From contig MU657180.1 in the NCBI GenBank assembly GCA_026770575.1, forward strand, positions 588,587 through 623,252: a DNA stretch of 34,666 nucleotides, written 5' to 3'. Position numbers and translations under genes: made by a program. Below, piece after piece: positions 1 through 33,744 of the stretch. The stretch is from Pelagophyceae sp. CCMP2097 (lineage: Eukaryota > Sar > Pelagophyceae). The notes beneath the pieces were generated by a model, which saw only the letters and a list, made by a program, of their open reading frames with translations, was not told where the DNA came from and did not search any database. Position 1 is the first letter of the stretch, and every line of letters begins with the position of its first letter.

Positions 1-1650
1 TCGATTTTACGACGTTGTCGCATCCTTCGCCCTCGACAGCACCCGCCCCCATTGCCTTCCTGCATGACTATTCATTTTCCTCTCTCTCCTTTTATTTATT
101 TCCGACCCTATAGTGTGAACATATGGATTCCGTGGCCAAACGACCGTGGCATTGTGCTGGTGCGGCTTAAGCAGCCATTTCATTCGGCACCGGGAATCTC
201 AGCCCCACCCAGGGTGAATCTTAAGCAAGCAATCTCACCCACATCGGCACCGGGAATCTCACCCCCATATCGGGGCGCAAAAAGCAGCTATGAGCGTTGG
301 AATTTAGCCGCCGACAGGGCATGCCTAGATGCGGCCTTAAAATCGACGAACCCATTCTAGGGACTACAAGCACTCAATGAGTGGGGGGGAGGGCTCCACA
401 GGGCTGCGTTCGCCCACTCGTGGTGACCGTCGGCCCTCTCCTGTAGACTCACCCGGCCTTCTATTGCCAGCACCTCCCTTGTCACTCCTTACCGGTGGAT
501 CTACGCAAATAAAAACCTCATGCCATCATCCAATATGCCCAGGCTCACGGGAACATAAGGGGCCCCATATGGGACCCCATATGGGACCCCGGGCAACAGG
601 CTTTCAGCCGGCGCGCGTCGCCGCCCGCGGGCCACCCGGATCCGCGGCGGACATGGCCTTTCTAAGCTGCTCTGTGTTGTTATTTTTTTCTGGATTACCC
701 TAACCTCATACTGAGGGACCCGGGCTCGCGGTAGGGACAGTAAATCACAATCAATAACCGTAGATTGCTGGGTAGGGACGGTAAATCACAGTAAATCACA
801 GTCAAGTCACCGAAAACGGGGATTTAGCCCCGAAAAAAAACAAAAACCCGCACCGGATTTTAACTCGGAATTTACCAAGGTATCATCAGGTGTTTACTAT
901 ATACTTACCAGGTATTATGATAAATTCTTGAAAATTCTTGAAAACGACGCCCGGGATCCTCAAAATGCAGCAACGGAGGGCAGAGCACGACGACCGCGGC
1001 GGCCGAGCCGGGTCGACAGTAAATCATTTACTGTCGATTACTGACCCCCGACAGTAATATAATGTAAAGTAATGTAATACAATCACAGGATGTCCAGTCC
1101 CGGAGGACCTTCTCCTGGCGTACAATTAGTCAGATCAACCAACTTAGCACGAATTTGATAGGTATTTAACAAAAAAGATAAATGAAAGTATCGACAACAT
1201 GGAGAGTATTCTCAAGCACGATGAAGTCAACCTTAGCATGTGCTGACAAGGAATCAAAAATAATAAGTTTCTCAATAAGTTTTCCGGGTGCGCCGCGCGG
1301 GGCCCATAACTCTGGTAAGGTCCCTTCCGGGTGCGCCGCCCAGACGAGTGTCCGCGCGGCGCACATCCAGTCCCCGGTAGATAGGCACATGAAGTGGTGT
1401 GTGAGTTAGAATATGATGTTGAACCGAGAAGATTCCGGAAGATCCGGGAGCCGGCGTCGGGTCCATTGGGCGGAAACGGACCTAGGATCCGTTGAGCGAC
1501 CCGTTGGACGGACGGACCTTATGCAATCGCCCAAAATGCGACATGCAGATTCTCTGTACCGCTGATGACAACATGGGGCGTGCGGAATGGACTAAGCCCG
1601 AGTAAGGCGCAACCAAAATCGCTAGAAACTTTGTCACTACATTGTGCCCT
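1..1650. other. Gene-poor left flank with short repeats
   Basis: I see no convincing protein gene here. ORFs are short and lack recognisable domains. The stretch holds one copy of the CAGGGTGGATCTTAAG repeat family at about 203-236, a tandem pair of the palindrome CCCATATGGG near 567-590, several copies of AGTAAATCA between 735 and 1025, and a perfect palindrome at 1013-1037. Base composition is lower in GC than the gene regions. Confidence 0.6.
1013..1037. repeat. 25-bp perfect palindrome built on AGTAAATCA
   Basis: Two 12-base arms, TCGACAGTAAAT and ATTTACTGTCGA, flank a single C. The motif CAGTAAATCA recurs at about 737 and 786-800, so the palindrome is an inverted pair of a locally repeated word. 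It could form a hairpin or be the centre of a small foldback element. Confidence 0.6.
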
Positions 1651-8005: not shown

Positions 8006-8734
8006 ATGTGTTTATATACACTTCTGATCTGGCTCCTGGCACTGGGACCGGAAATCCCTTTAGCCAGGATTAACGTCGGTGTTGTGGATTGTAAACAAAC
8101 ATCGCATGGGTCATCCAAGATCGGGCCCATCTTCAGTGGGCGGCTCCAGGCCGCCCGTCCGATGGGCCCTCCAGTTCAAATGTCTTGCATGAGGTCGCGG
8201 GTTCGAGCCTGCTCGTTCACGTTTCTACTCCGCTTGGCATGCGAATTTGGCTGCTCGTCCTGTACACGCGCCGTACATGTAAATATACTCCCCCCCCCCC
8301 TCATCTTTTTACTGCCGCTGTTTCCGGCTCTCGGTCGTCGCGCGGCTGGGCGTTCTACCCAACCAGCTCCGCCTCTGGGCTCCGCCTCTGGGCTCAAACA
8401 GCGGTTGTGAATATAGGGACGGATTTAAATCTTTTGAATTCCCACTCAGAACAAATTTTACTTTTGGGAGGAGACAGGGAGCTTGAGAGACGCCCGAGAG
8501 ACGCCCGAGAGACGCAGAGCGCGCCCGTCTATAGGACCGTGCTCGTCGTCTCCACGCCACGCCTAGGTGCGCTTACTCGGAGCGCGGCGTCCTTTGCCCT
8601 TGGAAACCGCCCGGTCTCTGTGGCTCCTTGTTTGACTCTGCTCGTCCGCGCCCTGCTCGTCCACGACACGCGTCGCGTAAGCTCCCCCCCCTCATCGCCG
8701 CTGCGCTTCACCAAAAACGCTTCAAAAAAATTTT
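8006..8734. other. Intergenic, no gene recognised
   Basis: Only low-complexity ORFs occur. The stretch contains a three-fold GAGACGCCC tandem at about 8484-8513. It also contains a segment at 8653-8682 (CTGCTCGTCCACGACACGCG) that recurs inside the inverted-repeat element at 25253-25284, and a segment at 8686-8720 that matches 7132-7165. Confidence 0.55.
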
Positions 8735-9233
8735 AAGAAATATGAGCCGCCAAACAAATCTTTTACGACGAGGGATTCGAACCCGCGACCCTGACTTTGA
8801 GCGATCGCATCAATCGCTACTCGCGAACTGGCCGAGTCAGTTGCAATGGGCAAAAAAAAAAAAACATGCCACCTGACCGGATCGAACTGGCGACCTTCAG
8901 AATACGAGACAAATATGGCTGGGGCAAGTAGAAATGCACTCTTATTGGCGAGGGGAGTTATCGAGGAAAACGCGATTTAGTGTTGGGGCGGTTTTAGTGA
9001 TCTGGGCGCGATCCGCGCGAGCGTGCGCACACGCACAGCCAAAATCTCGTTTTGGGGAAAACGGGGAAACGCGCCCTTTATGTTCAATTCCCACTTGCCC
9101 CGGGTCCTCCCGCGACGAGTACGAAGATTTTTACAGCGGCGTTTGGACGATTCGATCGGGCTCGCCAAGATCTACACCGTAGGCCAGCTAACTCGGATTT
9201 GATTTGTTAGTAGTAATAGTGCATTTCTACTTG
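8735..9233. repeat. 499-bp duplicated block, copy 1
   Basis: This block is repeated without indels at 11067-11565 with only two substitutions that I can find. It contains two tRNA-derived segments on the minus strand (B-boxes at 8772-8784 and 8877-8890), an A-tract, and most of a TIR element starting at 8917. Its near identity means a very recent duplication, or an assembly artefact given the N-gap between the copies. Confidence 0.9.
8763..8846 (-). repeat. tRNA-derived SINE-like unit (class II cloverleaf)
   Basis: On the minus strand an 84-nt cloverleaf can be drawn. The acceptor pairs 6 of 7 (TTGCAAC with GTCGTAA), the D-stem is ACTC/GAGT, the anticodon stem is GCGAT/ATCGC, there is a long variable region, and the T-stem pairs 4 of 5 around TTCGAAT. 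Position 33 is G instead of U, and the sequence recurs at 9255-9340 and 11095-11178. It is therefore read as a tRNA-derived repeat, not a functional tRNA. Confidence 0.6.
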
Positions 9234-10808: not shown

Positions 10809-11056
10809 TAATACATTCTTGCGCGACTCTATTGGGATTTAAACCGACGAAAGTGACACCGATTAGATTTAAAACAACGGCTTGGTGCTACCGATTCGCT
10901 TTAGTTGCATCAAAGTGACACCGATCAGGATTATTCTGCACATTGCGACACCATCTGCATATAATACGTTCTTGCGCGACTCCATTGGGATTAAATCCGC
11001 AAAAGTGACACCAATGAGATTAAAACCGACGAAAGTGACACCAATGAGGATATTGC
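10809..11056. repeat. Degenerate tandem repeat block
   Basis: Units containing AAAGTGACACCRAT plus GAGATTAAAACCGACG recur at about 10848, 10910, 11000 and 11032. A longer segment (AATACNTTCTTGCGCGACTC followed by YATTGGGATT) recurs at 10809-10841 and 10961-10994. This indicates two overlapping repeat periods next to the gap. Confidence 0.7.
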
Positions 11057-11066
11057 CCTTTTTAAA

Positions 11067-11565
11067 AAGAAATATGAGCCGCCAAATAAATCTTTTACGA
11101 CGAGGGATTCGAACCCGCGACCCTGACTTTGAGCGATCGCATCAATCGCTACTCGCGAACTGGCCGAGTCAGTTGCAATGGGCAAAAAAAAAAAAACATG
11201 CCACCTGACCGGATCGAACTGGCGACCTTCAGAATACGAGACAAATATGGCTGGGGCAAGTAGAAATGCACTCTTATTGGCGAGGGGAGTTATCGAGGAA
11301 AACGCGATTTAGTGTTGGGGCGGTTTTAGTGATCTGGGCGCGATCCGCGCGAGCGTGCGCACACGCACAGCCAAAATCTCGTTTTGGGGAAAACGGGGAA
11401 ACGCGCCCTTTTTGTTCAATTCCCACTTGCCCCGGGTCCTCCCGCGACGAGTACGAAGATTTTTACAGCGGCGTTTGGACGATTCGATCGGGCTCGCCAA
11501 GATCTACACCGTAGGCCAGCTAACTCGGATTTGATTTGTTAGTAGTAATAGTGCATTTCTACTTG
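11067..11565. repeat. 499-bp duplicated block, copy 2
   Basis: Collinear with 8735-9233. It carries the same two tRNA-derived units and the MITE from 11249 onward. The copy stops exactly inside the right TIR at 11565, where WD40-coding sequence begins, so the last 8 bases of the MITE are missing. Confidence 0.9.
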
Positions 11566-17551: not shown

Positions 17552-19090
17552 ATGGCGGCTCCAAGCAGCCTCATCGCCTCTTTCGCGACCGTCCGGCGCA
17601 CGACCGCGGCGCAGGCCTCAGCGATCACCGCCCTCGAGCGCGCCTTTGACGCCGCGATGGTACGCCTTTTGAACCCGGCGTTGCATGATTGGCGACGACC
17701 ATCGTAGGCCCAGCTCGCAAACGACCGGCAAGCGCTCGAGGACGACCGCGCGGCCTTTATCCAAGAAACGAACGAAAAACTCGCGCGCGAAGAAGAGCTG
17801 CAGCAGCGGATGCGTGCGGCCGCGCCACCGCCCGACGAGCTGGTCAAGCTCAACGTGCGCGGCGCGCGCTTCGAGACGTCGCGGGCCGTGCTGACAAAGG
17901 TCGAAGACTCGATGCTCGGGCGCATGTTCGGGCGCTGCGACGCGATGCGGCAGCCGGACCCCAACGACGGTTCGATCTTCATCGACCGCGACGGCGAGCG
18001 CTTCGGCATGCTCCTCGACTTCCTGCGCGGCGATCCTCCCGATGGCCCGCGCATGCAGAGGGCGATCCGCGCGTTACCCGGGGCCGCGCAGGACGCAATG
18101 GTGCAGGAGCTGGATTACTTTGGCCTCGAGGCTGCCGTGTTCGGCGGGCGGCCGTGGACCGACGACGCGACGTTCCGACCGGGGCCGGACTTGAGTGAAG
18201 GACGTTCTTGGTGCGCTGCCGTGCTCGCTGGAGGGCGTGTTATTGTCTTTGGCGGTAAATCGGCTGAAGAAACGACGGAAGTGCTCGACACGCAGACGAT
18301 GACCTTTACAGCTGGGCCGAACATGCTCACGGGACGATCGGCCTTTGCAGCCGTCCAGATCGACGCTGATCGGGTGCTCTTGGTGGGTGGATGGAGTAAA
18401 GCAGGACAGTACAAATGTGTAAGCATTTTAAACACGACGGAGATCTTCCACCTCTCGACGCACACGTTTACACCGGGGCCGGACATGCAAGGGGCACGAT
18501 CCTATGGTGCCGCGATCGCACTCGACGCTCGCAGGATCCTCGTCGTTGGCGGTCACGAGGGCAGGTCTTTCTTGTCGAGTTCCGAAATCCTCAGCCTGGA
18601 CACGATGGCTTTTGCGCCCGGGCCTGCCATGACCACTTCGCGCGCCGGATGCGCGGCCGTCGCGCTCGACGAGCACCGCATCATGGTGGCCGGTGGCAGT
18701 TCAGTTACAGGTTTTTTAAATACGACTGAGATCCTCGACATCCGGACCATGTCGTTCGCGCCCGGCCCGTCGATGAGCTCGCAACGCGATGGATGCGCGG
18801 CCGTGCCCGTCGACGCGCAGCACGTCCTCATCATCGGTGGGTTGGACTCGTCAGGCAAGGCGTTGGTCGTGACTGAGCTCCTCGACGTGGCGATGCTCGA
18901 GTTCACGCCTGGGCCGGCATTGCAGGCTGGGCGCTATGCGTGTGCAGCCACGCGGCTCGGCGCTGCGGAACCGCGGATCCTCCTCGTGATGGGTGGTGAA
19001 GACGACCAAGGCGGAGAATGTTTTGTGACGGAGCTTCTCGCCGTCGATCCCCACCGGCAGCGGAGCGCGCGAGCGGCGCGCCGCGAGTGA
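17552..19090 (+). CDS. KCTD-type BTB plus kelch-repeat protein
   Basis: Two exons, 17552-17659 and 17708-19090, give 496 aa. The 48-nt GT-AG intron removes an in-frame TAG (17705-17707), and the same intron (61 nt, different frame) is required in the paralogue at 28192-29799. After a helical N-terminus with probable coiled coil (about 37-70), a T1/BTB potassium-channel-tetramerisation domain covers about 78-155 (VKLNVRGARFETS and GSIFIDRDGERFGMLLDF). About six kelch repeats follow to near residue 490, each with a VLLVGG or VVGG strand. KCTD and kelch proteins often act as cullin-3 adaptors; that role is inferred here. An upstream in-frame ATG at 17516 is an alternative start. Confidence 0.88.
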
Positions 19091-28191: not shown

Positions 28192-29799
28192 TCACGGTTG
28201 GCAGCGCGTCGACCACGCGGTCCTATGATGCTCAAAGGCGAGGACCTCGGTCGTCGAGAGGTCGTTGTAGCCGTCGTTGTAGCCGTCGTCGTCGTCGTCG
28301 TCGTCGTTGCCGCGTGGCCTTCGCCCACCCATCACGATGATCCGCGGCTCTGCGACGTCGAGTCGAGCGGCTGCGCACCAAGCGCGCCCGACCTGCATGG
28401 CCGGCCCAGGCGCGAACTCCATCGTCGCCACATCGAGGAGCTCCGTCGAGGTCAACGCCGTAGATGACGAGTTCTCCCCGTCGATGATGAGGGCGTGCTG
28501 CGCTTCGACGGCTGCGCTTCGACGGGCACGGCCGCGCATCCAAAGCGCGCCGAGCTCATCGACGGGCCGGGCGCGAATGCCATGGTCCGGAGGTCGAGAA
28601 CCTCCGTCGTATTCAACCGCTCTGAACGGGATCCGCCACCGGCCACCAAGACGCGGTGCTCGTCGAGCGCGACAGCCGCGCATCCACTGCGTGGAATGGC
28701 CATGTCGGGCCTGGGCGCAAAGGCCATCGTGTCCAGGCTGAGGATTTCCGTGCTTGACAGTATAGACTCGCCATCGTGGCCGCCAACGACGAGGATTCTG
28801 CGGGCGTCGAGTGCGACGGCAGAACAATAGCTTCGTGCCGATTGCATGTCCGGCCCCGGCGTGAACGTGCGCGTCGAGAGGTGGAAGATCTCCGTCGTGT
28901 AAAATTCTTCGCCATCGGCATCCACTCCGCCCACCACAAGCATCCGATCTGCGTCGAGCTGAACGGCTGCACAGCCCCCTTGTGCTGTGACCATATTCGG
29001 TCCAGCTGTAAAGGCCATCGTCTGCGTGTCGAGCACTTCCGTCGTGTCATAGCTGATCGTGTCATCAGCTGATCCACCACCAAACACAATAACACGTCCT
29101 CCAACAGAAACGGCTGCAAACCAAGCACGTGTTTCGTTCATCTCCGGCCCCGACTGGAACGTCGCGTCGTCGGTCCACGGCCGCCCGCCGAACACGGCTT
29201 CCTCGAGGCCAAAGTAATCCAGCTCTTGGACCATCGCGTCCCGCGCGGCCTCGGGTAATGCGCGGATCGCCCTCTGCATGCACGGGCCGTCGGGAGGATC
29301 GCCGCGCATAAAGTCGAGGAGCATGCCGAAGCGCTCGCCGTCGCGGTCGATGAAGATGGAGCCGTCCAAAGGGTCCGCCTGCAGCATCGCGTCGCAGCGC
29401 CCGAACATGTGCCAGAGCATCGAGTCCTCGACCTTTGTCAGCACGGCCCTTGATGTTTCGAAGCGCGCGCCGCCCACGTTGAGCTTGACCACGTCGTCGG
29501 GCGGCGGCGCGGCCGCGCGCATGCGCTGCTGCAGCTCTTCTTAGCGCGCGAGCTTTTCGTCCGTGTCTTTGATAAAGTTCGCGCGGTCGTCCTCGAGCGT
29601 TTGCCGGCCGCTTGCGAGCTGGGCCTGCGATGGTCGAAGCGTCGCGGCGCCGCCAATCATGCAACGTCGGTTTCAAATGGCGTACCATCTCGGCGTCAAA
29701 GGCCCGCTCGAGGACGGCGATCGCAGAGGCGTGCGCCGTGTTCGTGCGCCGGACGGCCTCGAGCGCGGCGGTCAAATCGTTCGGGGAGAGGGCCGCCAT
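28192..29799 (-). pseudogene. KCTD-kelch paralogue, broken
   Basis: Exon 1 is 29799-29686 (38 codons), the 61-nt GT-AG intron is 29685-29625, and exon 2 begins at 29624. It aligns throughout with the intact copy at 17552-19090. A TAA at 29541-29543 replaces the glutamate codon of LAREEELQQ. A 14-bp tandem duplication (28497-28510 and 28511-28524) in the fifth kelch repeat shifts the frame. The C-terminal part ends in a GAC-repeat-encoded Asp run. An ORF from Met 29522 to 28452 still covers the BTB domain and most kelch repeats, so a shortened protein remains possible. Confidence 0.8.
28259..28315. repeat. GTC/GTTGTAGCC microsatellite
   Basis: Two GTCGTTGTAGCC units are followed by seven GTC triplets and a GTTG end, within the 3' part of the kelch pseudogene. 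On the minus strand it encodes seven Asp plus a GYND repeat. Confidence 0.85.
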
Positions 29800-30754: not shown

Positions 30755-31114
30755 TTAGGCAGTGCCGGCGCTGGTGAACTTGGTGACGGCCTTGGTGCCC
30801 TCGGACACGGCGTGCTTGGAGAGCTCGCCGGGGAGCATGAGGCGGACGGCCGTCTGGATCTCGCGCGACGACATGGTCGCCTTCTTCGAGTAGCGGCCGA
30901 GCTTGGAGGCCTCGAGCGCGATGCGCTCGAAGATGTCGTTGATGAACGAGTTCATGATCGACATGCCCTTCTTGGAGATGCCCGTGTCCGGGTGGACCTG
31001 CTTCAGGACGCGGTAGATGTACGTCGAGTACGACTCGACACGCTTCTTCTTCTTCTTGCCCTCGGCGGCCTTCTTCGGCGCCTTGGCGCTCTTCTTCGAC
31101 GGGGTCTTGGCCAT
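30755..31114 (-). CDS. Histone H2B
   Basis: A 119-residue core histone from ATG 31114. The Lys-rich tail ([20 protein letters not shown]) leads into the H2B fold: [40 protein letters not shown], and the C-terminal [20 protein letters not shown] segment. It pairs with H2A in the nucleosome. The longer ORF to 31228 adds non-histone residues and is rejected. The last residues (TSAGTA) differ from the usual TSSK end. It is divergent from H2A across 373 bp. No intron. Confidence 0.97.
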
Positions 31115-31487
31115 GGTTGCTACGGGGTGCTTCGAGGCGACGAGAGATCGCTGCTCGCACGAGTGGGAGCAGGAAAGTGTTTTGACCCGAAGCCTGTGAT
31201 TCCGAAGCGCAGCAGCCCATATATTCAAACGGAACTCTTCGTGTTCGCGGTGTGTGGCGGGCCCTCGCGGCTGGGCGGCTGCTCGGGGGCGTCCGGGGCG
31301 ACCCTATCGCGATGCCGGAGCGTTCTATTCAATCCTCCTTCCAACGCGGCCTCGGCGTCGTCGATTTCGAGTCCAACGGACGGCTGGGATTCCGGAGCGC
31401 AGCAGCCGACGGCCGCCTTCCTCGACAAAGGCCAGCTCTCCACTGGCAGCACACCCGCACTCCCGTCTCACCGCACACTTCGACACC
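31115..31487. promoter_or_regulatory. Divergent H2B/H2A promoter
   Basis: This 373-bp spacer must drive both genes. A 20-bp word, GATTCCGRAGCGCAGCAGCC, occurs twice in the same orientation at 31198-31217 and 31388-31407. That is about 85 bp upstream of each ATG region on the H2B and H2A sides respectively. CATATATT at 31218-31225 is TATA-like for H2B. ATTCAA occurs at about 31222 and 31327. Confidence 0.65.
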
Positions 31488-31886
31488 ATGTCTGGCAAGG
31501 GCAAGGGCGGCCGCGGCAAGGGCAAGACGGGCGGCGAGAAGGCCACGTCCAGGGCCTCCAAGGCGGGCCTCCAGTTCCCCGTCGGCCGCATCGGCCGCTA
31601 CCTCAAGCAGGGCAAGTACTGCACGCGCATCGGCGCCGGCGCGCCCGTGTACCTCGCCGCGGTCCTCGAATACCTCTGCGCCGAGATCCTCGAGCTCGCC
31701 GGCAACGCGGCGCGCGACAACAAGAAGGCGCGCATCGTGCCGCGCCACCTCCAGCTCGCCGTGCGCAACGACGAGGAGCTGAACAAGCTCCTCGGCGGCG
31801 TCACCATCGCCTCGGGCGGCGTGCTCCCGAACATCCACGCCGTGCTCCTCCCGAAGAAGACCAAGGGCAAGGAGTCAGAGGAGTAA
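31488..31886 (+). CDS. Histone H2A
   Basis: A 132-residue core histone from ATG 31488. It starts [20 protein letters not shown] and contains [54 protein letters not shown] and the C-terminal [10 protein letters not shown]. There is no SQ-(E/D)-hydrophobic ending, so it is not an H2A.X type. Intronless. The acidic patch residues around [13 protein letters not shown] are present. Confidence 0.97.
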
Positions 31887-31973
31887 ATCTGCGGCGCCGA
31901 CGACGCTGCGGAGCTTCCTCCGAGACGGCGCGTTCCTTCCGAGGGACGTTCTTCGCTCAAAACAACAACCACC

Positions 31974-31989
31974 GGTGTTTCTTAACACC
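31974..31989 (+). terminator. Histone-type 3' stem-loop of H2A
   Basis: GGTGTT-TCTT-AACACC lies 88 nt after the H2A stop and is followed by ACCCC. It fits the metazoan consensus GGYYYTHHTHARRRCC except for one compensated pair (G-C instead of Y-R). This supports stem-loop-type rather than polyadenylated histone mRNA. Confidence 0.82.
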
Positions 31990-32241
31990 ACCCCAAAACG
32001 ACGGACACGCGACGAAGAGAGGCCCTTCGACTCGAGACCATAGTTGGCAGACGTGGAACGTCGAAAATTTGAGGATAGCAATGCGATTGGAGGCGTCGCG
32101 TTGGGAGCGCGGCCCGCCGCGTCGCTCCTTGAGCACCCCCCTCGGCTTCAGCGCGGCCGATCGAGCACGCCCGTACACATTACGATGCGCGTTTGGCGTC
32201 GATGCGTGCATCGGGAGATTACGGCGTTGGGTGTTGAATGG

Positions 32242-32313
32242 ACGATCTGCTGTTTTCGGACGCGGGCGGCCCGCTGGTGCGGGGCCGCGGCTCGCCGTCA
32301 TGAGCGCAGACGT
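32242..32313 (-). ncRNA. Candidate SECIS element of the deiodinase-like gene
   Basis: On the minus strand, 4 nt after the stop, ACGTCTGC (32313-32306) pairs with GCAGATCGT (32250-32242, one bulge) as helix I. An internal loop and then ATGA (32301-32298) opposite GA (32257-32256) give the non-Watson-Crick core. A GC-rich helix II includes GCGGCC/GGCCGC. The apical loop carries CC, not the commoner AA. Position, core and helix I fit a eukaryotic SECIS; helix II has mismatches, so this is a candidate only. Confidence 0.45.
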
Positions 32314-32316
32314 GCA

Positions 32317-33063
32317 TCAGCAGCAGAGGCGCCTGCAGAGGTCGCGGACCGCGCCGTCGAACGAGCATCCATCGGGCTCGGCGACCCAATCCACCTTGCC
32401 CGCGGCGTCGAAGACGTACAATCGCAGCGGCCAGGGCGCATAGAGCTTTTCAAAGGGCTCGCCGCGCTCCGGGTCGTCGACGAAGGTGTCCATGTCGATG
32501 CCGTACTCGGCGACGAAGCGCCGGGCGAGCCTCAAGCGCGCCGCGAGCGTCTTCGGCTGCTCGACGACCACGGGCTCGCCCGAGGGCACGCCGCGCGCGG
32601 AGCGCAGCGGCCACTCGTCGGTGGCGTGCGCCTCTGCGATGTAGACGAACTTCCACACCGCGGCGCGCCGCCCCGCGGCCGACGCCGAAGCGCGCGAGAG
32701 CAGCGGCCCGAGTACGCGCCACGGCGGTCAGGAGATGGACCCGGCGACGACGACGAGCGGCCGCGCGTTGCCCAGTTCGCGCTGGAGCAGCGGAACCGCA
32801 GCGTTTGCGGCGAGCGACCACACGGCGACGGCCGGCGCGGCGTCGCCCGCGTGGACGTCGCCGTGTCTCCCACGGTTGTAGCGGACGTAGTGCGCCACCT
32901 CCGGGTGTCGCAGCGCCGCCGCGCGCAGCAGCGCTACGCGCCGGTCGACGCGCGCCTCGTCGCCTTGCGTGACGGCGGCGAGCGACTCGCGCGCCACGCG
33001 GCGTTGCACCTCAGTCGCCACGTCGATCCAGTCGCCCGCGCCCGAACGCTCCGCGTCCTCCAT
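32317..33063 (-). CDS. Iodothyronine-deiodinase-like selenoprotein (in-frame TGA = Sec)
   Basis: From ATG 33063 the frame encodes 248 residues if the TGA at 32728-32730 is read as selenocysteine (residue 112). The context is RPLVVVAGSIS-Sec-PPWR, matching the deiodinase active site RPL-V-x-GS-x-x-Sec-PP-F. Downstream are FVYIAEAHATDEW, with the conserved EAHA-D-W and its His, and PFEKLYAPWPLRLYVFDAAG, also typical. The fold is thioredoxin-like. Animal enzymes reductively deiodinate thyroid hormones; algal relatives have unknown substrates, so redox or dehalogenase function is inferred. The frame is open upstream to the TGA closing the ubiquitin-like ORF at 33175, so the true start may lie further 5'. 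A candidate SECIS follows the stop. Confidence 0.82.
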
Positions 33064-33174
33064 CGCCAACTGCGTCGCCGGAGACCGCCGCAGCGCGTCC
33101 TCGACCCCGAGCAGCGCCACGAGAAACCCCTCGTCCGCTCCATCGTCCGCCGTGTCCGCCGCCGCGTCACCGGC

Positions 33175-33744
33175 TCACGACCTTGCCCGCTTCGAAGGCG
33201 GGCTGCTGCAGCCGCCGCGCGCCGCGGCGAGCGCGCTCCGAAGGCGTGCGACGTACGCGTCCGTCGACTCGCCAGCGCGCCGCTCGTCGTCGTCGCCATC
33301 GTCGTCGTCGTCGTCGCCGTCGCCGTCATAACTGCCGTCGCCGCCATCATCGCCCGATGCTCCGTCCGTGCGGCGGGGGGGCGCTAACTCGTGCGCGCGG
33401 CGCGCGATGTCTTTGGCCGTCTCGTTGCACCAGAAGATATCAACGTTGCCGCAGGGCGTGGCGACGGTGACTTGCAGTGGGAGGCCGTCCTGCGCCGACG
33501 ATTCGTGGTACATGCCGCCGCGGAGGCGGAGGACGAGGTGCAATGTGGCATGTGCTGTAATGTTGTACGAGGCGAGCCTGTAAGCGTCTTCGAGCTGCTC
33601 GCCGGCGAAGATGAGCCTCTGCTCGTCGTTCGGGATGTCCTCATTGGCCTGGATCTGCTTCTTGAGCTGCGCGATGGTGGTAAAAAACGGGCGGACCTCG
33701 AGCGTGATCGTCTTGTCCGCGAGCGTCTTGGCAAAGATCTGCAT
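33175..33744 (-). CDS. Ubiquitin-like protein with C-terminal extension
   Basis: A 189-residue ORF begins [17 protein letters not shown] and ends its first domain [10 protein letters not shown] at about residue 77, a close ubiquitin relative. The equivalents of Lys48 (FAGEQLEDA) and Lys63 (NITAHATL) are not lysine, while Lys6, Lys11, Ile44, His68 and the LRGG tail are kept. The following segment ([16 protein letters not shown], then a helix) could be a second degenerate ubiquitin fold. It leads to an Asp-rich linker. The frame is continuous with the deiodinase-like gene after the TGA at 33175-33177. It is also continuous upstream with another ubiquitin-like segment that is cut by a TAG. Confidence 0.75.

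Follow-up and report, generated by a model that had tools for sequence, protein, structure and literature searches.

Known deiodinase-like selenoproteins and the present locus

Deiodinase-like selenoproteins have been reported from organisms far apart from one another. In the available parts of the respective reports, one is described in Dictyostelium (PMC2375036), others in Sargasso Sea bacteria (PMC1088965), and in eukaryotic algae DIO is listed as one of the selenoprotein families, with 80% of its members containing selenocysteine (Sec) and a fifth lacking it (PMC7539508). Algae also possess selenoproteins fused to other domains, such as SELENOM-pVHL and GST-MSRA (PMC7539508).

The locus considered here lies on the minus strand of a stretch of 34,666 nucleotides from Pelagophyceae sp. 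CCMP2097 (contig MU657180.1, positions 588,587 to 623,252), which is called the window throughout. The window gene is a member of the published deiodinase-like selenoprotein kind. Like the algal, Dictyostelium and marine bacterial DIO proteins, as far as the available parts of those reports describe them, it combines a PF00837 domain and an active-site Sec with no thyroid hormone context. It differs from them in having eight close copies and one divergent copy in its genome, in an open reading frame (ORF) for ubiquitin (or ZZ zinc fingers in the divergent copy) lying in frame across a second TGA, and in the loss of the second active-site His in the window type. A putative fusion at the window would resemble SELENOM-pVHL and GST-MSRA, as outlined in the available text, in that a selenoprotein domain is joined to another domain, whereas the join itself would be a UGA and is known here from sequence alone. 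As far as seen, the multi-copy family, the ubiquitin or ZZ partner in frame across a second TGA and the SECIS consensus of the genome appear to be new. Among the matches listed in a literature search with partial coverage, by titles and the starts of abstracts, no ubiquitin-deiodinase fusion was found, and by title none of the papers listed for CCMP2097 concerned selenoproteins.

The account that we favour, at a probability of roughly 0.92, is that of an intact gene for a deiodinase-like selenoprotein, in which a SECIS element would direct Sec insertion at the UGA at 32730-32728, the product would act as a thiol-dependent Sec reductase, and the domain would start upstream of the ATG at 33063.

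Reading frame, domain and genomic copies

Positions 33174-32320 of the minus strand form one frame, in which TGA 32730-32728 is the sole stop. The original prediction had joined two ORFs (32728-33120 and 32317-32658, minus strand) across a single TGA and had seen deiodinase sequence on both sides. Both ORFs are present in the ORF list and share this frame, and the profile search that had been suggested for the Sec-translated sequence agrees: the joined frame of 285 amino acids matched Pfam T4_deiodinase (PF00837) with 34.8 bits against a curated cut-off of 27 bits, while the separate halves failed, the downstream half alone reaching 15.6 bits and the upstream half giving no match. In a six-frame search of the whole genome, the window gene scored 28.8 bits. 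The in-frame TGA (32728..32730, minus strand) falls on the deiodinase active-site Sec position, GSIS-U-PPWR. The deiodinase-like domain extends over 32320..33117 (minus strand), including a conserved N-terminal helix with the sequence ALLGVEDALRR, and is supported by Pfam, AlphaFold2 and Foldseek. Its terminal stop, TGA at 32317..32319, is also TGA in all seven close copies with a 3' end and TAA in the divergent copy. The open frame begins neither at GTG 33120 nor at ATG 33063, the start originally proposed, but at 33174, and it continues past another TGA (33177-33175) into a ubiquitin ORF; this ORF, the second TGA and the position of the helix had all been overlooked.

The genome searched comprises 66 Mb in 638 contigs. 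With the window protein as query, 16 places were found, namely eight close copies including the window (86-100% identical), one divergent copy on contig C16 (39%) and seven fragments. Nine of nine genome copies covering the site, the window among them, carry TGA at the Sec position within a GS-x-S/T-U-P-P loop, its decoding being predicted. PF00837 itself detected nine places across the genome, eight of them with an in-frame TGA. The ninth (L007, contig C8) was considered as a Cys-containing deiodinase and rejected, as it scored below the cut-off and is by sequence an ordinary WCGPC thioredoxin.

Predicted structure and likely chemistry

Among solved structures, a single-sequence search found Dio3 (4tr3) as the best match with an E-value of 5e-4, followed by Dio2 with 0.008, and a five-row profile gave E-values of 3e-11 and 5e-9, respectively. 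An AlphaFold2 model of the window protein from 27 rows reached a pLDDT of 77.5 and a pTM of 0.70. When this model was submitted to Foldseek, mouse Dio3 (4tr3) and mouse Dio2 (9h48) ranked first and second, with TM scores of 0.73 and 0.74 by target and 0.53 by query, and general thioredoxin-fold proteins came next. The predicted fold of the window protein is a thioredoxin fold nearest to the deiodinases.

Vertebrate Dio2 and Dio3 have the fold, the GSxS/T-U-PP loop and the EAH motif in common with the window protein, whereas identity in the structural alignment is only 24% (4tr3) and 21% (9h48). The His residues of EAH and of QHRSLEDR in Dio3 are taken here to be the two active-site His. The first is retained in the window protein; at the second, where a functional iodothyronine deiodinase should also carry His, Pro is aligned. 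The divergent copy has a His at this second position (IPRHRCAGDRL). The domain of the window gene contains one catalytic Sec, no adjacent Cys and a Cys close to the C-terminus. Because of the single Sec, the lack of a neighbouring Cys, the retained EAH and the Pro in place of the QHRSLEDR His, we regard a thiol-dependent Sec reductase as the most likely product, with a peroxide, a disulfide or an organohalogen as candidate substrates. We would not expect it to be an iodothyronine deiodinase, and there is no reason to expect iodothyronine substrates.

The upstream ubiquitin reading frame and the start of the domain

Upstream of the deiodinase, in the same frame, an ORF at 33178..33744 (minus strand) encodes ubiquitin (65.7 bits by Pfam) with a C-terminal extension and an acidic linker. 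It is followed by the second in-frame TGA (33175..33177, minus strand; KRARS-TGA-AGDAA), a candidate Sec codon or a true stop, which is kept together with the frame in all seven close copies compared. A linker (33064..33174) then leads to the first in-frame ATG (33061..33063). According to frame and alignment, the conserved helix makes up the second half of this linker, so that the ATG lies 3' of the helix. No other in-frame ATG between the two TGAs could serve as the start of the domain. The divergent copy (L020, G000:C16:721299-722132 plus upstream sequence) has a comparable arrangement, with a ZZ zinc-finger ORF (75.9 bits, two stretches), a TGA and the deiodinase in one frame.

In the homologue alignment, the family motif of the N-terminal helix is ML.RE(E/D).LR. 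The motif opens with Met in the divergent copy and in six of ten N-terminal halves found in protein databases (P0015, P0022, P0023, P0024, P0026 and P0027), and with Leu in the window-type copies covering it (ALLGVEDALRR; also P0004 and P0005), in P0009 and in P0025, the last of which carries a long, stop-free extension at its N-terminus. In the window protein, the helix is predicted with a pLDDT of about 86, and it is kept in P0009 (62% identical). Since this family-conserved helix lies upstream of ATG 33063, the deiodinase domain probably begins upstream of that codon. Translation would probably enter the helix from further upstream, by reading of the upstream UGA as Sec or by read-through, by a non-AUG start or by splicing from an unseen exon.

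The search for introns that would remove the upstream TGA required a GTRNG donor, preservation of the frame, an acceptor 5' of the helix and a length of at most 480 nt. There were none in the window, L010, L011, L013 or the divergent copy, and candidates were present in L012, L014 and L016. Of frame-preserving GT-AG introns of 38-140 nt over this TGA with weak donors, the window has one candidate and the divergent copy six. Across eight copies, dN/dS was 0.52 for the ubiquitin extension, 0.74 for the linker, 0.52 for the domain before Sec and 0.64 after it; for three intact copies the values were 0.46, 0.52, 0.50 and 0.55 in the same order. These substitution patterns are not decisive.

An even chance is given to an arrangement of two genes, in which TGA 33177-33175 closes the ubiquitin gene and the deiodinase has its own start, be it ATG 33063, a non-AUG codon (for instance GTG 33120) or an unseen 5' exon. 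Ubiquitin fusions with a stop codon at their end are commonplace, all seven copies covering ATG 33063 in frame retain it, and the public model of the divergent copy (P0006) begins at a Met of its own. However, merely 111 nt in the same frame separate the upstream TGA from the ATG, and a start at this ATG would remove the helix that is conserved in P0009 and confidently predicted.

A ubiquitin-Sec-deiodinase fusion is possible, though we would give it distinctly less than an even chance. A single mRNA would then encode ubiquitin, extension, Sec and deiodinase with two Sec codons served by the same SECIS, the upstream UGA being read as Sec or leaky; termination there would yield a ubiquitin-extension protein and read-through the fusion, which deubiquitinases could cut after LRGG. 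The whole of 33744-32320 forms one frame with TGA as its only type of stop, and the ZZ zinc-finger ORF, TGA and deiodinase of the divergent copy likewise share one frame, but a shared frame arises by chance in one of three cases each time. The upstream TGA and frame are kept in all seven copies compared, but as the copies are about 90% alike this is weak evidence. The only ATG falls 3' of the family helix, whose motif opens with Leu in the window-type copies, P0009 and P0025, although with Met in the divergent copy and six of the ten halves. No GTRNG-donor intron removes the TGA in the window, L010, L011, L013 or the divergent copy, whereas such candidates exist in the three other copies named above and weak-donor ones in the window and the divergent copy. 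Changes in the linker are not clearly biased by codon position, with 6, 5 and 8 variable sites at positions 1, 2 and 3 next to a dN/dS of 0.74 over eight copies. Furthermore, P0023 and P0025 run upstream without a stop, P0006 starts past the TGA, and none of 7994 scored protein-database candidates was such a fusion at E ≤ 0.01.

It is more doubtful still that the upstream UGA is a selenium-regulated Sec codon, at which termination would give a ubiquitin-fusion protein and decoding would add the deiodinase domain, with the order ubiquitin, extension, Sec, deiodinase with its own Sec. If this UGA were decoded, ubiquitin would be linked to a selenoenzyme in a novel manner governed by selenium, and the ZZ zinc-finger arrangement of the divergent copy would mark the linker UGA as an ancient switch in this family.

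The candidate SECIS element

A SECIS candidate of the CC apical type is located at 32242..32313 (minus strand). In 3' order after the stop come helix I (GTCTGC/GCAGAT, 32311-32306 paired with 32250-32245), ATGA (32301-32298), a GC-rich hairpin and CCGAAAAC, with the GA of the core at 32257-32256. The original prediction of an ATGA/GA core with a paired helix I stands; the distance of four bases from the stop does not, as helix I begins 5 bases and ATGA 15 bases after it. The apical CC had been regarded as unusual, yet it is an accepted form in the eukaryotic SECIS primary pattern NTGA-10..13-AA/CC-15..39-GA, as given in the available text of PMC2375036. The window element fits this pattern, with CC at 13 nt and GA 25 nt further on.

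Folding energy by itself is weak support for the element. In an energy scan of both strands of the window it ranked fifth of 87 matches; of 400 dinucleotide-shuffled versions of the 350-nt 3' stretch, 4 equalled or beat it, and folding of a 101-nt stretch gave z = -1.36. An Rfam search returned no SECIS match even at E ≤ 10. A first SECIS scan was too strict, without matches at the deiodinases, and was loosened for the later scan.

As an independent test, a covariance model (R1, eight pairs) was built from eight SECIS candidate rows of other selenoprotein genes with the deiodinases excluded: GPx (L028, L029 and L030), SelT, SelW, MsrA, Sep15 and SelM, the GPx L031 being omitted as a repeat of the L030 element. 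MAFFT misaligned the raw SECIS letters, and N padding at the tip was used instead. Helix II covariation in these eight genes was 0.659 over nine pairs, against a mean of 0.250 in shuffles, none of 500 of which reached it, and at most 0.210 in slides. Over the window, the best R1 match was 32313-32242 (14.3 bits, E 0.18), with the runner-up at 9.3 bits. Over 14 loci there were 18 matches at E ≤ 10, eight at deiodinases, one past an MsrA exon and nine others. All eight deiodinase copies with a 3' end were matched at the same place, the close copies (7/7) with 13.4-18.3 bits and the divergent copy with 30.0 bits (E 1e-4). The other matches include three within L020 coding repeats (17.1, 14.4 and 13.4 bits) and one in L040 (13.5 bits), so that false matches do occur at scores like that of the window element. 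Within the seven close copies, changes in the element, judged by eye, preserve pairing or fall outside the stems, save for an A to G change in L013. The core is GTGA in SelW and L013 and ATGA in the others.

Taken by sequence, the SECIS of the window resembles those of other selenoprotein genes in the same genome, and RTGACG...GA, often with CC, is put forward as its candidate SECIS consensus. That the real element lies elsewhere in the 3'UTR is very improbable. The R1 score and the energy are modest, which leaves some room for it, but 32313-32242 is the best R1 match of the whole window, and a scan over 600 nt past the stop found no [AG]TGA core start besides that of the element. The RTGACG...GA core is moreover common to the window, the eight other genes and the divergent copy, though the rows were partly picked by and laid out on this core, which is therefore no independent result.

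As an observation apart, the match past the MsrA exon (L039:1914-1981) is SECIS-like with 18.7 bits; that exon is without a TGA, and the Sec codon may sit in an unmatched exon.

Proposed decoding of the active-site TGA

Each protein-database search scored about 8,000 candidates sharing most words with the query within a limited length range. Among 27 homologues, 2 from one search and 25 from a second, ten stop precisely at the Sec position (...GSIS, GSYS, GSLS or GSHS), 16 match only beyond it, one model skips it and none spans it; the 27 were compared as proteins alone, in which the identity of the stop codon at their ends is not visible. Two of the N-terminal halves (P0004 and P0005) are near-copies with 88-91% identity, and the other eight are 34-65% identical. 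P0002 matches after the Sec site only and has an unrelated N-terminus, and P0006 (M885DRAFT_586047, Pelagophyceae sp. CCMP2097) is the public model of the divergent copy with the Sec stretch left out. Genes of this kind are thus cut at the Sec codon in catalogues, with 26 of 27 homologues covering one side only and P0006 omitting the Sec stretch. At the DNA level, relatives in Thermoleophilia metagenome-assembled genomes read GS(F/Y)T-TGA-(P/A)PF in three of three bacterial cases, and in viral contigs 11 stretches fitted a search pattern, none of them a relative.

Reading of UGA 32730-32728 as Sec is supported by the TGA in nine of nine copies, homologues from other organisms that break at this very residue, a SECIS resembling the others of the genome, and the presence of SecS and a PSTK-like piece. 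The recurrence of the break at one codon over such distances makes a random stop an unlikely source, and a pseudogene on the strength of the TGA alone is rejected in view of the same break in distant homologues. Eukaryotic SECIS elements bind SBP2 and eEFSec. The element at 32313-32242 would recruit this machinery, UGA 32730-32728 would then be read as Sec, while translation would still end at the terminal UGA, which precedes the SECIS core by 15 nt.

Random stops and frameshifts among homologues had been named in the original prediction as a sign against the gene. This applies in part: four of the eight close copies carry extra TAG or TGA codons (L011, L012, L014 and L015), L015 has in addition lost the frame upstream, so that its first part was found as a place of its own (L022), and L016 is truncated. 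Intact copies are those of the window, L010 and L013 as well as the divergent one, and dN/dS among intact copies is only moderately low (0.47-0.62). That TGA 32730 is a true stop in a decaying duplicate, as this damage in sister copies could suggest, is the least likely reading of all, given the break at the exact same residue in ten database halves, eight of them only distantly similar, and an otherwise intact window copy with its SECIS kept.

Some of the extra stops recur between copies. A TAG replacing the Trp of APWPLRLYV is common to L011, L012 and L015, and a TGA replacing the Trp of VDWVAEP is common to L012 and L015.

Selenocysteine machinery and other selenoproteins

A SecS gene was found in the genome, as well as a PSTK-like piece that scored 59 bits, under the cut-off of its model. 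tRNA-Sec was not found among the 53 of 5,768 tRNA candidates scored or by a pattern search, and the selD model gave no candidate in the genome. Other genes with TGA at what we take to be known Sec positions encode GPx, SelT, SelW, MsrA, Sep15 and SelM. In one GPx gene (L028), another in-frame TGA precedes the GPx domain (DVVA-TGA-DGTLRNR) and may belong to a very short intron. By eye, introns of only about 45-65 nt with GTGCGT or GTAACG donors are apparent in SelT and GPx genes (L034 and L032/L033).

Neighbouring genes in the window

The neighbours of the deiodinase gene are eukaryotic and comprise core histones, a phosphate transporter and BTB-kelch proteins. By gene content, the convergent neighbour is a histone H2A (31254..31886, plus strand), and the next is a core histone, H2B-like by eye (30755..31228, minus strand). 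After H2A, 31969-32014 (plus strand) resembles a histone 3' stem-loop (Rfam Histone3, 24.3 bits, under the gathering threshold of 34). A related pair of BTB-kelch genes lies on opposite strands at 17810-19090 (plus) and 28452-29522 (minus). Repeated ORF translations reveal a near-identical duplicate at 8628-9182 and 10882-11514, with a run of N at about 10700.
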